Shown here: positions 49,979 to 54,877 of the stretch, piece after piece | Numbering within the stretch: position 1 is the stretch's first letter | Layout of the letters: each line of letters opens with the position of its first letter | Source: an uncultured Eubacteriales bacterium | GTDB lineage: Bacteria; Bacillota; Clostridia; Christensenellales; Aristaeellaceae | Assembly (NCBI GenBank): GCA_900315675.1 | Contig: OMZY01000002.1 | Span: 124,001 to 188,000, forward strand | DNA length: 64,000 nt | Direction: 5' to 3' | Made by a program: the position numbers and the translations under genes | The notes under the pieces: generated by a model | What the model saw: only the letters and a program-made list of their open reading frames with translations | Told to the model about the DNA's origin: nothing | Database searches by the model: none

Positions 49979-51283
49979 TTATTTGACTGCCTCGAACGCC
50001 GCATCCAGCGCCGCGATCAGGTCTTTTATGTTTTCTGTACCGATGGACAGACGGATCGTGTTGGGCTTGATGCCCTGATCCAGCAGTTCCTCCTCGGTCA
50101 GCTGGCTGTGGGTGGTTGTAAAGGGATGGATCACCAGGCTCTTCACGTCTGCCACGTTGGCCAGCAGGGAGAAGATGGCCAGGTTGTCAATGAATTTCTG
50201 TGCGGTTGCGCTGTCGCCCTTCACTTCGAATGTAAAGATGCTGCCGCCGCCGTTCGGGAAATACTTCTGATACAGCGCATGGCTGGGTTCTCCCGGCAGG
50301 GAGGGATGATGCACCGCTTCAACCTGGGGATGCTTGCTGAGGTAGTCCACGATCTTCAGGGCGTTCTCCACATGGCGTTCCACACGCAGGGACAGGGTTT
50401 CCAGGCCCTGCAGGAACAGGAAGGCATGAAAGGGGCTCAGGGTGGAGCCGGTATCCCGCAGCAGGATTGCACGGATATAGGTGGCAAAGGCAGCCGGGCC
50501 TACCGCGTCATAGAAGCTGATGCCGTGATAGCTGGGGTTGGGTTCAGCGATCCACGGATATTTTCCGCCGGCTTTCCAGTCGAACTTGCCGCCCTCAACA
50601 ATCACGCCGCCGATGGCTGTGCCGTGGCCGCCGATGAACTTCGTCGCGCTGTGCACCACGATGTCCGCGCCCCATTCCAGAGGCCTCACCAGGTAAGGCG
50701 TGGCAAAGGTGGAGTCCACCACCAGCGGAATGCCGTGAGCGTGAGCAATCTTGGCCAGCGCTTCAATGTCCACGATATTGCTGTTGGGGTTGCCCAGGGT
50801 TTCCACATACAGCGCCTTGGTGTTCGGCTGGATTGCCGCTTCAAAAGCGCCTTCCTCGTCGGGATCCACAAAGGTGGTGGAGATTCCGGAGGTCAGGGGC
50901 AGGGTATGCTCCAGCAGGTTGAAGGTGCCGCCGTAGATGGTCTTGGAGGCCACAATGTGCTCTCCCGCCTTGGCCAGCGCCTGAATGGTGTAGGTGATTG
51001 CCGCGGCGCCGGAGGCTACCGCCAGGGCAGCGCTGCCGCCTTCCAGGGCCGCGATGCGCTCTTCAAACACGCTCTGGGTGGGATTGGTTAGCCGGCCGTA
51101 GATGTTGCCGGCGTCCCGCAGGCCGAAACGGTCTGCCGCATGCTGGGCGTTATGGAAAACATAGGAAGCGGTGGCGTAAATCGGAACCGCGCGGGAATCG
51201 GTGGCGGGATCAGCCTGCTCCTGGCCGATGTGCAGCTGTTTGGTTTCAAAGGACCAGTTGGCAGAATTCTTGATATCAGACAT
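49979..51283 (-). CDS. metY: O-acetylhomoserine sulfhydrylase (Cys/Met metabolism PLP enzyme)
   Basis: This 434-residue enzyme of the Cys/Met PLP family makes homocysteine from O-acetylhomoserine and sulfide. Family marks: FETKQLHIGQEQADPATDSRAVPIYATASYVF, a YGRLTNPTQSVFEERIAALEGG segment and the PLP lysine in VVHSATKFIGGHG. Length and the QEQADP stretch are typical of MetY rather than of cystathionine enzymes (about 380 residues). AAGGAG precedes the ATG at 51283. It is divergent from an amino-acid ABC operon, with a 440-bp region rich in regulatory features between. Confidence 0.93.
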   Translation of the reverse strand: MSDIKNSANWSFETKQLHIGQEQADPATDSRAVPIYATASYVFHNAQHAADRFGLRDAGNIYGRLTNPTQSVFEERIAALEGGSAALAVASGAAAITYTIQALAKAGEHIVASKTIYGGTFNLLEHTLPLTSGISTTFVDPDEEGAFEAAIQPNTKALYVETLGNPNSNIVDIEALAKIAHAHGIPLVVDSTFATPYLVRPLEWGADIVVHSATKFIGGHGTAIGGVIVEGGKFDWKAGGKYPWIAEPNPSYHGISFYDAVGPAAFATYIRAILLRDTGSTLSPFHAFLFLQGLETLSLRVERHVENALKIVDYLSKHPQVEAVHHPSLPGEPSHALYQKYFPNGGGSIFTFEVKGDSATAQKFIDNLAIFSLLANVADVKSLVIHPFTTTHSQLTEEELLDQGIKPNTIRLSIGTENIKDLIAALDAAFEAVK

Positions 51284-51363
51284 TGTTCTTATCTCCTTAC
51301 ATATCATGATTATTGATGGAAACCCCTGTGTTGCCGAAGTTTCTCCTTCGCTGAAAACGAATC

Positions 51364-51395
51364 ATTCTGAATTCTGAATTCTGAATTCTGAATTC
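51364..51395. repeat. Four tandem heptamers ATTCTGA
   Basis: The unit ATTCTGA is repeated exactly four times (51364-51391), with a partial fifth. It lies in the metY leader, and the period equals that of the runs at 1641, 30753 and 54893. Confidence 0.85.
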
Positions 51396-51509: not shown

Positions 51510-51554
51510 GTCCAATACCGGACATTAATACAATGCTATAGGTTGAATCTATAG
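51510..51554. promoter_or_regulatory. Two dyads between metY and the ABC operon
   Basis: GTCC-N6-GGAC lies at 51510-51523 and CTATAG-N7-CTATAG at 51536-51554. The second contains ATAG-N7-CTAT, the size of a LysR-type box. A minus-strand metY promoter with TTGGAC and GTAGAT overlaps the first dyad. Confidence 0.5.
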
Positions 51555-51645
51555 CTCCCGTATTTTCTGAAATATATAGATAAGGTAGAAATTCCGGTTA
51601 CCCTGGCAGTATTCCGGATTACGGCTCTGAATTATCTTTGTATCT

Positions 51646-51678
51646 CCTATTGACACAGTGGGTAAATGGTGCTAATAT
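51646..51678 (+). promoter_or_regulatory. Promoter of the amino-acid ABC operon with Rrf2-type operator
   Basis: TTGACA (51650-51655), 17 bp and TAATAT (51673-51678). The block 51646-51666 differs from the nifS block at 46919-46939 by one base. Confidence 0.8.
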
Positions 51679-51730
51679 GCCCACAAGCTTCCAACAGAAG
51701 CCGGTAAATCAAGAGAAAGGAGGCGCGGAC

Positions 51731-51829
51731 ATGTATACGTTCGGAAAGGAAAAGATGTGTCGAATGCTGATCTCCCGGGCATGCTCTATGGCTGGGGTGT
51801 TGGCATGTATGTGTCTGCGCTCTGAATAA
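51731..51829 (+). CDS. Cysteine-rich leader peptide
   Basis: This 32-codon ORF has AAAGGAGG 7 bp before its ATG. It reads MYTFGKEKMCRMLISRACSM and ends VLACMCLRSE. Cysteines lie at 10, 18, 26 and 28, four in 32 residues, far above average. It stands between a strong promoter and a terminator hairpin, directly ahead of an amino-acid uptake operon. This is the layout of a translational attenuator that senses cysteinyl-tRNA supply. That function is inferred. Confidence 0.7.
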   Translation: MYTFGKEKMCRMLISRACSMAGVLACMCLRSE

Positions 51830-51892
51830 TCCGCTTAAGGATCATGCGGAAGTCATAACTGCCCGGGAGCTTGAGACGGCTGCCGGGCTTTT
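51772..51892 (+). promoter_or_regulatory. Terminator/antiterminator attenuator of the ABC operon
   Basis: The terminator pairs GCCCGG (51861-51866) with CCGGGC (51883-51888), with an inner AGC/GCT stem, followed by TTTT. The upstream strand GCCCGGGAG (51861-51869) is also perfectly complementary to CTCCCGGGC at 51772-51780 inside the leader ORF. The two pairings exclude each other, so the second can act as antiterminator. Confidence 0.68.
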
Positions 51893-51939
51893 GATTGAAG
51901 CCGGCAGAAGCCGGTAAATCCAGAAAGGAAGAAAGCACA

Positions 51940-52599
51940 GTGGATTGGGCGTACATCGGAAAGGTCCTGCCGCTCTATGGGAAAGCTGCCTGGCTGACCC
52001 TGCGGACAGGCACGGCGGGCATCCTGCTTGCCTCCCTGGTCGGACTGCTTTGCGCCGCCGCCCTTCACTGGCGGGTACCGGTCCTTCGCCGGCTCACCGC
52101 GGCTTATGTGGAACTGAGCCGGAACACACCCCTGCTCGTCCAGCTGTTCTTCATCTATTACGGTCTGCCGAAGATCGGCATCAAAACGAATCCGGAAGCC
52201 TGCGGCATCGTCGGTCTCGCCTTCCTCGGCGGCGGCTACATGACAGAAGCCTTCCGCAGCGGCATTGAAGCCGTGGACCGTATTCAGGAAGAGAGCGCCC
52301 TGAGCCTCGGCCTTACCCGGAGGCAGACCTTCCTGCACGTGATCCTTCCCCAGGCGATGGCGATCAGCGTACCGGCCTTCATGGCCAACGTGGTATTCCT
52401 GATGAAGGAAACCAGCGTCTTCTCCGCCGTCAGCCTGATGGATCTGATGTTCACAGCCAAGGATCAGATCGGCCTGTATTATCAGACCACGGAGAGTCTT
52501 TTCCTGCTGGTAGGTGCCTACCTGCTGATCCTTCTCCCGCTTTCGCTGCTGGGAACCTTCTGGGAAAGGAGGCTGCGGCATGCCGGATTTGGGACTTGA
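51940..52599 (+). CDS. Polar amino acid ABC transporter permease 1
   Basis: This protein of 219 residues has about five membrane helices and matches HisM/GlnP-type permeases: YVELSRNTPLLVQLFFIYYGLP and the ATPase-contact loop EESALSLGLTRRQTFLHVILPQA. The start is GTG at 51940 with AAAGGAAG upstream. It overlaps the next permease gene by 20 bp. The leader cysteines and Rrf2-type promoter suggest cystine or cysteine as substrate. Confidence 0.9.
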   Translation: MDWAYIGKVLPLYGKAAWLTLRTGTAGILLASLVGLLCAAALHWRVPVLRRLTAAYVELSRNTPLLVQLFFIYYGLPKIGIKTNPEACGIVGLAFLGGGYMTEAFRSGIEAVDRIQEESALSLGLTRRQTFLHVILPQAMAISVPAFMANVVFLMKETSVFSAVSLMDLMFTAKDQIGLYYQTTESLFLLVGAYLLILLPLSLLGTFWERRLRHAGFGT

Positions 52600-53254
52600 G
52601 GTTCTCTGGAAGGGAAAAAACTTTGTCCGGCTCCTGGGCGGTCTCTGGGTGGCGCTCCGCATCAGCCTGATTGCCGCCGGGATCAGTCTGGTTGCCGGGA
52701 TTCTGCTGGGAATCCTCGCAAGCCGGAAACGCTCCGTTTCCTCCGTAATCCTGCGGATCTGGCTGGGCATCATCCACATCATGCCCCAGATGGTTCTGCT
52801 GTTCCTGATGTATTTCGGAACCACCCGGGCATTCGGCTGGAATCTTTCCGGTGAAACAGCCGCCATCATCGTTTTCTCCCTCTGGGGAACCGCGGAGATG
52901 GGCGACCTGGTTCGCGGTGCGGTCAGCAGTATTCCCGCCATCCAGCGGGAAAGTGCGGAAGCGCTGGGGCTGAAAACGCCGCAGGTCTATCGCTGGATCA
53001 TCCTGCCCCAGGCCATCCGGCGCCTGATTCCCCTGTCCATCAACCTGATCACCCGGATGATCAAGACCACCAGCCTGGTGACCCTCATCGGCGTGGTGGA
53101 AATCCTGAAGGTCGCCCAGCAGATTATTGAGGCGAACCGGAAGGCAAGCCCGAACGCGGCGTTCGGCGTGTACCTGACCATCTTTGTGATGTATTACCTG
53201 GCCTGCCGGCCTCTGAGCCTGGCAGCAAAGAAACTGGAAAAACACTGGAGGTGA
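52580..53254 (+). CDS. Polar amino acid ABC transporter permease 2
   Basis: This 224-residue HisQ/GlnP-type permease is the partner of the preceding one. It has about five helices and the loop RESAEALGLKTPQVYRWIILPQAIRR for ATPase contact. A heterodimeric permease is common in polar amino-acid uptake systems. GGAAAGGAGG within the end of the first permease gene provides its ribosome site. Confidence 0.9.
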   Translation: MPDLGLEVLWKGKNFVRLLGGLWVALRISLIAAGISLVAGILLGILASRKRSVSSVILRIWLGIIHIMPQMVLLFLMYFGTTRAFGWNLSGETAAIIVFSLWGTAEMGDLVRGAVSSIPAIQRESAEALGLKTPQVYRWIILPQAIRRLIPLSINLITRMIKTTSLVTLIGVVEILKVAQQIIEANRKASPNAAFGVYLTIFVMYYLACRPLSLAAKKLEKHWR

Positions 53255-53258
53255 GCGC

Positions 53259-54020
53259 GTGGCGGAAACAGTCCTGAGCATCTCGCATCTGACGAAGCGG
53301 TTTGATGACCAGACCATCCTGGAGGATCTTTCACTGGATGTCCGGGAAGGGGAAGTTGTCGTCATCGTCGGCTCCAGCGGATGCGGCAAGAGCACGCTCC
53401 TGCGATGTATTAACGCCCTGGAGGATATCCAGGGCGGAGAAATCCGGCTCCGGGGTGAGCTGATTCGTCAGGGAAGCAAAAACCTGCCGGAAATGCGCCG
53501 GAAAGTCGGTATGGTATTCCAGAACTACGAGCTGTTCCCTCATCTGACCGTGCTGGATAACATCCTGCTGGCGCCGGTAAAGGCACAGAAACGGTCCCGG
53601 GAGGAAACCCGGGAGGAGGCGCTGGCGCTGCTGGACCGGGTTGGCCTGAAGGAAAAGGCCGGCAGTTTCCCCCGGCAGCTCTCCGGCGGACAGAAACAGC
53701 GCGTAGCCATCGTCCGTGCCCTGATCATGCATCCCGAAATACTGCTTTTCGATGAGGTCACCGCCGCCCTGGACCCGGAAATGGTCCGGGAAGTGCTGGA
53801 TGTCATCGTCAGCCTGGCGGATCAGGGAAAAACGATGCTTATTGTGACCCATGAAATGTCCTTCGCCCGGGCCGTGGCAGACCGGATCATCCTGCTGGAA
53901 GACCGGCAGATCCTGGAAGAAAGCGTCCCGGAACAGTTCTTTACGTCTCCCAAAACGGAGCAGGCCAAGAAATTCCTGCAATCCTTTGAATTTAACAGAA
54001 AAAATAAAACAGAGGCTTAA
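53259..54020 (+). CDS. Polar amino acid ABC transporter ATP-binding protein
   Basis: This 253-residue ATPase of the GlnQ/HisP type shows Walker A GSSGCGKSTLL, Q-loop MVFQNYELFPHLTV, signature LSGGQKQRVAI, Walker B EILLFDEVTAALDPEM and the H-loop THEMSFAR. The catalytic glutamate is present. The start is GTG at 53259 with GGAGGTGA upstream, 4 bp after the permease stop. Confidence 0.94.
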   Translation: MAETVLSISHLTKRFDDQTILEDLSLDVREGEVVVIVGSSGCGKSTLLRCINALEDIQGGEIRLRGELIRQGSKNLPEMRRKVGMVFQNYELFPHLTVLDNILLAPVKAQKRSREETREEALALLDRVGLKEKAGSFPRQLSGGQKQRVAIVRALIMHPEILLFDEVTAALDPEMVREVLDVIVSLADQGKTMLIVTHEMSFARAVADRIILLEDRQILEESVPEQFFTSPKTEQAKKFLQSFEFNRKNKTEA

Positions 54021-54040: not shown

Positions 54041-54877
54041 ATGAAAACGATCCGTAATATCGCAGCCCTGGTCCTCGTCCTCGTTCTCTCCCTTTCCCTT
54101 GTTGCCGCCACGTCCGCGGATGTGGTCTACCGCACTCTGGACGAAATCAAAGCGTCCGGCACCATCAATATCGGCGTCTTCTCCGACAAGAACCCCTTTG
54201 GTTATGTGGATGAAAACGGCGAATATCAGGGCTATGACGTCTACTTTGCCCGCCGCATCGGTGAAGATCTCGGCGTAACCGTCAACTACGTTTCCACCGA
54301 AGCTGCCAACCGCGTTGAATACCTGGAGACCGGCAAGGTGGATATCATCCTGGCCAACTTCACCGTCACCCCCGAGCGTGCTGAAAAAGTGGATTTCGCC
54401 CTGCCCTATATGAACGTGGCCCTGGGTGTTGTCTCCCCCGACAGCCGGATCATCAAAGATCTGTCCGAGCTGACCGCGGATGACCAGGTGATCGTCATCT
54501 CCGGCACCACCGCCGAAGACTACCTGATCAAGAACAATCCCGAAATCACCCTGCAGAAGTACGACACCTATGCCAATGCCAAGAACGCTCTGGAAAACGG
54601 CAATGCTGTCGCCTGGGCCAATGACAACACTGAAGTAATCGCCTACGCGCTGCAGAACGAAGGCTACACCGTCGGTATTCCTTCCCTGGGCAGCCAGGAC
54701 ACCATCGCTCCTGCGGTCACCAAGGGCAATGAATCCCTGCTGAACTGGATCAATGATGAAATCAAGGCCCTGGCCGCCGAGAATTTCTTCCACAAGGACT
54801 ATGAAGAAACCCTGGTGGACACCTACGGTCTGGACTATGAAGACAGCCTGGTGCTGGAGGGGGGCGGTGCCGTCTAA
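54041..54877 (+). CDS. Amino acid ABC transporter substrate-binding protein
   Basis: This 278-residue protein of SBP family 3 has a signal peptide (MKTIRNIAALVLVLVLSLSL onward, ending ATSA) without a lipobox cysteine. The mature part shows the ligand-binding pattern INIGVFSDKNPFGYVDENGEYQGYDVYFARRIGEDLG and VDIILANFTVTPERAEKVDFALPY, like PEB1/GlnH-type proteins. A free signal-cleaved receptor is unusual in a monoderm; membrane anchoring by an uncleaved signal is possible. Last gene of the ABC operon. Confidence 0.92.
   Translation: MKTIRNIAALVLVLVLSLSLVAATSADVVYRTLDEIKASGTINIGVFSDKNPFGYVDENGEYQGYDVYFARRIGEDLGVTVNYVSTEAANRVEYLETGKVDIILANFTVTPERAEKVDFALPYMNVALGVVSPDSRIIKDLSELTADDQVIVISGTTAEDYLIKNNPEITLQKYDTYANAKNALENGNAVAWANDNTEVIAYALQNEGYTVGIPSLGSQDTIAPAVTKGNESLLNWINDEIKALAAENFFHKDYEETLVDTYGLDYEDSLVLEGGGAV

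Follow-up and report, generated by a model that had tools for sequence, protein, structure and literature searches.

The window, a stretch of 64,000 nucleotides from an uncultured Eubacteriales bacterium, carries an amino-acid ABC transporter operon preceded by a short leader. The features of this locus are the following:

51650..51678, + strand: sigma-70-type promoter match, TTGACA-17-TAATAT with TG before the -10 box (10/12, a consensus match only)
51716..51723, + strand: Shine-Dalgarno (SD) sequence of the leader, AAAGGAGG, read from the sequence
51731..51829, + strand: leader ORF of 32 codons, MYTFGKEKMCRMLISRACSMAGVLACMCLRSE, with ATG at 51731 and stop codon at 51827-51829
51758..51767, + strand: TGTCGAATGC, Cys codon 10 followed by Arg-Met, putative control codon and also 5' strand of hairpin H1
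51772..51792, + strand: predicted antiterminator 5' strand, CTCCCGGGCA (51772-51781) and ATGGC (51788-51792), with compensatory changes in the family
51852..51869, + strand: predicted antiterminator 3' strand, GTCAT (51852-51856) and TGCCCGGGAG (51860-51869)
51861..51892, + strand: intrinsic terminator, GCCCGG (51861-51866) with CCGGGC (51883-51888), then TTTT (51889-51892)
51940..52599, + strand: amino-acid ABC transporter permease 1, GTG start
52580..53254, + strand: amino-acid ABC transporter permease 2
53259..54020, + strand: amino-acid ABC transporter ATPase
54041..54877, + strand: substrate-binding protein, closest solved structures 2yjp and 1xt8

The 32-codon ORF with its strong ribosome site, its Cys codons 10, 18, 26 and 28, and the terminator at 51861-51892, all described in a first-pass annotation of this DNA, are read directly in the sequence; the Cys codons form no run. 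A 63-aa ORF with a TTG start in the same frame (51638-51829) is rejected as the leader, its start being upstream of the -35 box. The same annotation had proposed a 9-bp pairing within the leader: CTCCCGGGC (51772-51780) is indeed a perfect complement of GCCCGGGAG (51861-51869), but the antiterminator is longer, with 10 + 5 bp, and pairs CUCCCGGGCA + AUGGC with GUCAU + UGCCCGGGAG. By eye, its inner five pairs (51788-51792 with 51852-51856) are A-U, U-A, G-C, G-U and C-G. As TGCCCGGGAG doubles as the terminator 5' arm, antiterminator and terminator share the strand 51861-51869 and are mutually exclusive. The leader RNA is more stable than all 200 dinucleotide shuffles, with a z of -3.5 for 51684-51940 and of -3.7 for 51684-51897.

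Several repeats surround these elements. A 20-base direct repeat, 95% identical, precedes both the leader SD (51695-51714) and the permease SD (51905-51924); by eye, it is absent from three other leader loci (L005, L008 and L009). Two 14-base tandem copies, ATTCTGAATTCTGA (51364-51391), lie between a divergent sulfhydrylase gene and the leader promoter, and a terminator-like inverted repeat with CTATAG arms (51535-51555, - strand), which could also be an operator, is located upstream of this promoter. The upstream part of the window also contains nifS/nifU.

By sequence comparison, the elements of the window leader are beyond chance: they recur in at least 174 distinct leaders, mostly from rumen and gut Clostridia, and their pairing is kept by compensatory changes. 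These leaders belong to a set of 180 entries (150 non-redundant at 85%), composed of the collected sites minus six dropped loci, plus nine sites from later searches. The six loci (L050, L066, L073, L090, L120 and L207), judged to match by chance or to lack a leader ORF or a terminator, were dropped before the counts, while L135, in which no candidate for the terminator arm scored, was left out of the structure set. A 23-base core is found with at most 3 mismatches in 52 of 308 family genomes, two of which (G018 and G142) are reached only by judged chance matches; the reversed core has no match in the same 308 genomes. The exact 18-base pattern occurs in at least 119 stretches of genome contigs, and among the matches listed 116 of 120 such sites have GCCCGGGAG, or a version of it with a single mismatch, no more than 237 bases downstream. 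Titles among the matches listed name Lachnospiraceae, Ruminococcaceae, Oscillospiraceae, Saccharofermentans, Blautia, Christensenella, Anaerovibrio and others; isolates with such a leader include Anaerovibrio lipolyticus DSM 3074 (L104) and Clostridium porci (L201). Single leaders in assemblies named Eggerthellaceae and Sutterella (L178, L217) may reflect transfer or mis-binning.

A search fixing only CTCCCGGGC and GCCCGGGAG has hits in 58 of the 308 genomes of the family and in 8 of the 391 of the class, counts that include chance hits. Among its 38 matches listed, mostly from the genus of the window, CGAATG is in place in 37, and TGT precedes it in 34 of these 37; the remaining match, L229, has neither. 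In each of the three TGT exceptions (L245, which is the L010 site, L228 and L254), Cys is still encoded, one or two codons further upstream. A covariance model, R1, built from 121 leaders, identifies 14 of 391 class genomes at E ≤0.01, own genome included, although its strict filters may have lost weak ones; around one of these matches (L271, in G382) there is no leader. The genome of the window has one R1 match, and a second leader copy is not detected there by this model up to an E of 1, with 150 of the 751 first-look candidates scored; its O-acetylhomoserine sulfhydrylase gene (49979-51307, - strand) is the one divergent from the ABC operon. In genus g141, five genomes (G404, G430, G480, G584 and G653) possess, on the contig of the standard leader and 4-12 kb away from it, a second and more diverged one (L274-L278); that of L277 has CCCCM as its core and has lost CGA.

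The first-pass annotation had made its case depend on a leader conserved at homologous operons, and this holds for a part of them. Permease 1 has a match in 90 of 100 genomes, own genome and paralogues included, and 30 of these loci were fetched. All 15 loci that reach 73% identity, that of the own genome among them, possess a leader: it is directly upstream in 13, whereas in two (L013 and L014) it precedes a sulfhydrylase gene followed by the same ABC genes. Conversely, no core with at most 3 mismatches is found at the 15 fetched loci of 53-57% identity (one of them, L030, being a short locus). The leader therefore goes with one transporter subfamily.

The genes downstream of the leaders point to sulfur metabolism. 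The first gene was chosen mechanically, as the first ORF within 750 bases that encodes at least 100 aa, which yields a gene for 144 of the 150 leaders, that of L009 being in the wrong frame. In Pfam, these 144 proteins match Cys_Met_Meta_PP (86), NlpA lipoprotein (24), SBP_bac_3 (18), BPD_transp_1 (11), M20 peptidase (4), PALP (2), ABC_tran (2) and rhodanese (1), some proteins being counted twice. A phmmer comparison with eight representatives assigns 86 to PLP-dependent sulfhydrylases of the O-acetylhomoserine/serine type, all of which match TIGR01326 (E up to 1e-10), 49 to ABC uptake systems, 2 to cysteine synthase and 4 to PepT-like proteins, with three left without assignment (L009, L071 and L149). 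The ABC uptake genes are split into 35 binding proteins (17 NlpA, 11 family 3, 7 both), 12 permeases and 2 ATPases. Representatives of the downstream genes comprise O-acetylhomoserine/serine sulfhydrylase, cysteine synthase A (a cluster of 53, two of which are first genes), a MetQ-like lipoprotein, a PepT-like peptidase, MnmA, MoeB/ThiF, an iron alcohol dehydrogenase (a cluster of 9) and proteins without family. In two genomes (G033 and G038), a single leader stands ahead of sulfhydrylase and ABC genes together.

In the window itself, the best matches of the binding protein are 2yjp (1.2e-67) and 1xt8 (1.6e-63), both of which we take to be cysteine receptors, the latter being presumably CjaA. 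CjaA binds cysteine, while its role in cysteine import is unproven according to the accessible part of PMC4178425. NCBIfam scores of the window transporter are below every equivalog cut-off shown. The earlier proposal of a cyst(e)ine uptake system agrees with these data, as family leaders precede genes for cysteine/homocysteine synthesis and uptake and the binding protein is closest to 2yjp and 1xt8.

RNAalifold predicts for the 150 leaders an antiterminator formed by CUCCCGGGCA + AUGGC with GCCAU + UGCCCGGGAG, and a helix H2 nested in it. Together, these are paired in 89.1% of the cells as compared to 31-56% when the strands are slid. In 121 sequences, 14 of the 21 pairs display two-sided change, with 91 such cells versus 32.5 after shuffling (0/500); these changes are spread across many loci, as counted per cell and not as events on a tree. 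The first ten antiterminator pairs are largely fixed by the searches, while the AUGGC helix and H2 are free, and there all 11 pairs vary on both sides. Compensatory changes are also found in the outer helix: CTCCCGGAC/GTCCGGGAG in L067, L069 and L083 (one position, two genera) and CTCCCAGGC/GCCTGGGAG in L270, which belongs to another family. Imperfections of this helix are one mismatch and two wobbles in L097 and one mismatch in L071. The terminator stem of the family is paired in 76.8% of the cells, versus 27-59% when slid; its two-sided cells number 44 versus 19.9 (0/500), yet they fall on 5 pairs versus 3.6 (44/500), which is unexceptional. The check advised at first, to align the leader in related genomes, returns a nearly invariant core Cys and a covarying antiterminator, the terminator following in cells and not in pairs.

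We read the window leader as a cysteine-responsive, ribosome-mediated transcription attenuator of a cyst(e)ine ABC uptake operon, with a probability of about 0.87. This is the interpretation of the first-pass annotation, now backed by comparison: the Cys codon, antiterminator and terminator recur across many genera, and sequence comparison also brings out the ORF, the coevolution of a helix P1 described below and the sulfur gene context. The leaders would probably allow gut and rumen Clostridia to switch on cysteine synthesis and uptake genes when cysteine is short.

In the mechanism that we infer, with cysteine as the signal, transcription would start near 51685, as deduced from the promoter match, and a ribosome would load at the leader SD. 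When Cys-tRNA is scarce, this ribosome would stall while codon 10, which encodes the Cys of the CRM core, occupies its A site. It would then cover the Cys-Arg-Met codons, and hence the H1 5' strand, and leave free the CUCCCGGGCA...AUGGC strand just downstream, which could pair with GUCAU..UGCCCGGGAG; no terminator would form and the operon would be transcribed. When cysteine is ample, the ribosome would continue to the stop codon and release the UGUCGAAUGC strand. The latter may form H1, the putative off-state switch, with the region encoding AGAFG in many members, CUCCCGG would be held and the terminator at 51861-51892 would form.

A ribosome with a codon in its A site covers about 12-13 nt beyond it, and the near-invariant Cys codon of the family begins 14 nt before the antiterminator strand. 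The scattering of the Cys codons had raised a caution: the four codons of the window indeed form no run, but it is codon 10, at this fixed distance, that matters. A second caution was that a ribosome at the stop codon might free the antiterminator strand as a stalled one does. Folding of 121 leaders addresses it in part: H1, which uses the Cys-Arg-Met codons, can hide this strand behind a ribosome that has moved on. As long as the terminator arm is still missing, H1 has a mean probability of 0.00 and H2 of 0.55 (shuffled 0.17) with the ribosome stalled, whereas H1 rises to 0.35 (shuffled 0.14) with the ribosome at the stop; a local CUCCCG pairing is at 0.49 (shuffled 0.32) at the stop versus 0.27 when stalled. 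In the window leader, the values for stalled and stop states are 0.00 and 0.51 for H1, and 0.66 and 0.81 for CUCCCG.

The other part of this caution stands. With the terminator 5' arm present, the mean probability of the antiterminator is 0.98 stalled, 0.81 at the stop and 0.87 without ribosome, so that equilibrium favours it in most of the 121 members even without a stalled ribosome. A purely thermodynamic switch is rejected on this ground, and the off state must therefore rest on folding order and ribosome position or masking. With the complete terminator, family means in the stalled, stop and ribosome-free states are 0.84, 0.48 and 0.56 for the antiterminator, and 0.10, 0.35 and 0.31 for the terminator. 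In the window leader, the complete terminator is favoured in all three states (0.67-0.78), least when stalled (0.67 versus 0.14 for the antiterminator). The shifts between states nonetheless go the way that the mechanism would require.

The leader peptide has the core (M)CCRMxxSRA. An in-frame start is present in all 150 non-redundant leaders and a good SD in 139 of them, the best start being picked by SD. Among these 139, the core Cys (99%) and the Arg and Met at +1/+2 (139/139) are largely fixed by the searches, whereas the Cys at -1 (65%) occupies a position that they leave unfixed; the alternative frames have a stop in 217 of 278 cases. Overall Cys frequency is 10.1% in the leader frame, hardly above the 9.6% of frame 1 (2.6% in frame 2), and the signal is therefore position, not abundance. 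To note, 44 of the 139 peptides have a terminal Cys directly before the stop codon. Three leader peptides submitted to NCBIfam have no match.

Of the 139 leaders, 65% have Met at codon -2 and 28% have it at -3; some leaders read MCMCMCCCRM. This raises the alternative, rather unlikely in our view, of a leader sensing sulfur amino acids generally: Met and Cys codons alternate upstream of CRM, and a stall at either would expose the antiterminator strand. The NlpA/MetQ-type domain of 24 of the 144 first genes is in keeping with it, and the sulfhydrylases may also make homocysteine. However, only the core Cys is nearly invariant in the search that leaves the core unfixed, and a stall at the invariant Met, two codons past this Cys, would partly cover the antiterminator strand, given the footprint mentioned above. 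The frequent cysteine synthase as second gene and the closeness to 2yjp and 1xt8 also fit cysteine better.

A nascent-peptide arrest, in which the CRM..SRA peptide would stall the ribosome on a ligand, instead of codon 10 awaiting Cys-tRNA, appears improbable. It would account for Arg-Met following Cys in every good-SD leader (largely search-fixed, but CGAATG is kept in 37 of 38 matches where unfixed), a conservation that exceeds the need of H1. On the other hand, Cys residues upstream of the core form varied patterns (CC, CCC, CMC), as expected of control codons, and the SRA codons coincide with the antiterminator strand.

Turning to H1 in the attenuator reading, RNAalifold identifies it locally in the 150 leaders as CG.AUGC/CCCGG with CCGGG/GCGU.CG; in the window, 51758-51767 would pair with about 51797-51805, by eye and with wobbles and a bulge. 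It is paired in 81.3% of the cells, versus 26-40% when slid, but it exhibits no covariation (its score is reached by 229 of 500 shuffles), since the collected leaders are almost uniform in its 5' strand. The H1 3' strand motif GC[AG]TTCG is present in 38 of 150 leaders (1.1 expected), and in 8 of the 38 it is out of the usual Ala-Phe-Gly frame, which points to a constraint on RNA rather than on peptide. CGAATG, the Arg-Met codons, varies less than its partner strand does (79.6% paired), which H1 alone fails to explain. Such nucleotides conserved beyond the need of the peptide, namely the 37 of 38 CGAATG and the 8 of 38 out-of-frame motifs, might also suggest a metabolite-binding riboswitch or a protein-binding RNA with an incidental ORF. 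We hold this to be very improbable in view of the starts, SD sequences, alternative-frame stops and unforced -1 Cys described above. Moreover, the window and 18 loci have no match to a T-box, SAM or other cis-regulator at Rfam gathering scores, which rules out a known RNA family at this threshold. Finally, a constitutive premature terminator with chance pairing and no amino-acid control, to which the weak U-tract of the window (four T only; a generic terminator scan missed 51861-51892) might lend itself, is hardly credible given the covariation and the gene context in many genera.

The cysteine attenuator may have a further layer. The end of the ORF, once made, could pair with the SD/start region of the leader (helix P1; in the window, about 51722-51738 with about 51807-51822) and each transcript would then admit only about one ribosome to the leader. 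In a swap test, P1 strands have -16.1 kcal/mol with their own partners versus -13.2 when swapped (p 2e-12, both controls flat); the corresponding values for H2 are -12.1 versus -10.7 (p 7e-7), both p values being inflated by related sequences. Tentatively, the family might represent a widespread, hitherto undescribed and self-locking attenuator class, which would combine a Cys codon at the footprint edge, an SD shut by P1 after a single pioneer ribosome, and a CGA AUG step acting beyond base pairing, for instance as a slow codon or through the nascent peptide, to sharpen the stall.

In Clostridia, amino-acid control is usually attributed to T-boxes, riboswitches and repressors; T-boxes and SAM riboswitches are the common RNA controls of sulfur genes in Firmicutes and involve no leader peptide. 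The enterobacterial his, trp, thr and leu attenuators possess control codons, an antiterminator, a terminator and a possible pairing to the leader SD; the clostridial leader shares these elements, and differs in amino acids, sequences and phylum. Like T-boxes and SAM riboswitches, it is an RNA control of cysteine/methionine genes located ahead of the first gene (for context, see the accessible part of PMC3766115); unlike them, it harbors a leader peptide, and it has no Rfam match. The leader family is not mentioned in the accessible parts of PMC6429828 and PMC3766115. Among the matches listed from Rfam, NCBIfam and the literature, no description of it was found, which is weak evidence of absence. 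Leader-peptide attenuation is already known, proposed cysteine versions included, while a clostridial cysteine family may, on this weak evidence, be without description.

Polycysteine leaderless short ORFs of mycobacteria are said to confer cysteine-responsive attenuation in a 2020 work by Canestrari. The accessible text of PMC13236596 terms this control translation attenuation. Such ORFs are leaderless by title, whereas the clostridial leader is led by an SD and apparently transcriptional, and that of the window has no Cys run. The actinobacterial leaders of PMC1262725 (cys operons of Mycobacterium and P. acnes, cbs of B. longum) are also short ORFs with Cys codons; as far as the available part of this source goes, they have Cys runs near the stop and no conserved terminator hairpin, whereas antiterminator and terminator recur in the clostridial family.

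Cysteine leaders had been held by the first-pass annotation to be mainly actinobacterial, which does not stand: the present family is mainly clostridial, and uORFC-8-2 has been proposed for cysS in Rhodobacterales (PMC8632094, accessible part). Like our family, uORFC-8-2 is a uORF with a proposed ribosome-mediated attenuation of a cysteine gene. It is described there with tandem Cys codons, usually 14 and 15, two stems and a terminal U-run. This description sets it apart as alpha-proteobacterial, found only before cysS and dominated by UGC, instead of UGU in the clostridial family. No aminoacyl-tRNA synthetase is present among the 17 + 17 Pfam families matched by the 144 first genes, unlike the cysS position of uORFC-8-2. 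In the part of PMC2965389 at hand, histidine leader peptides of bacilli were presented in 2010 as a novelty outside Proteobacteria and Actinobacteria. Here, a putative cysteine leader-peptide attenuator recurs before synthesis and uptake operons of many rumen and gut genera. It may serve as a marker for cysteine genes and suggests substrates of unnamed ABC transporters, and its natural compensatory variants offer a set for testing attenuation beyond these two phyla.
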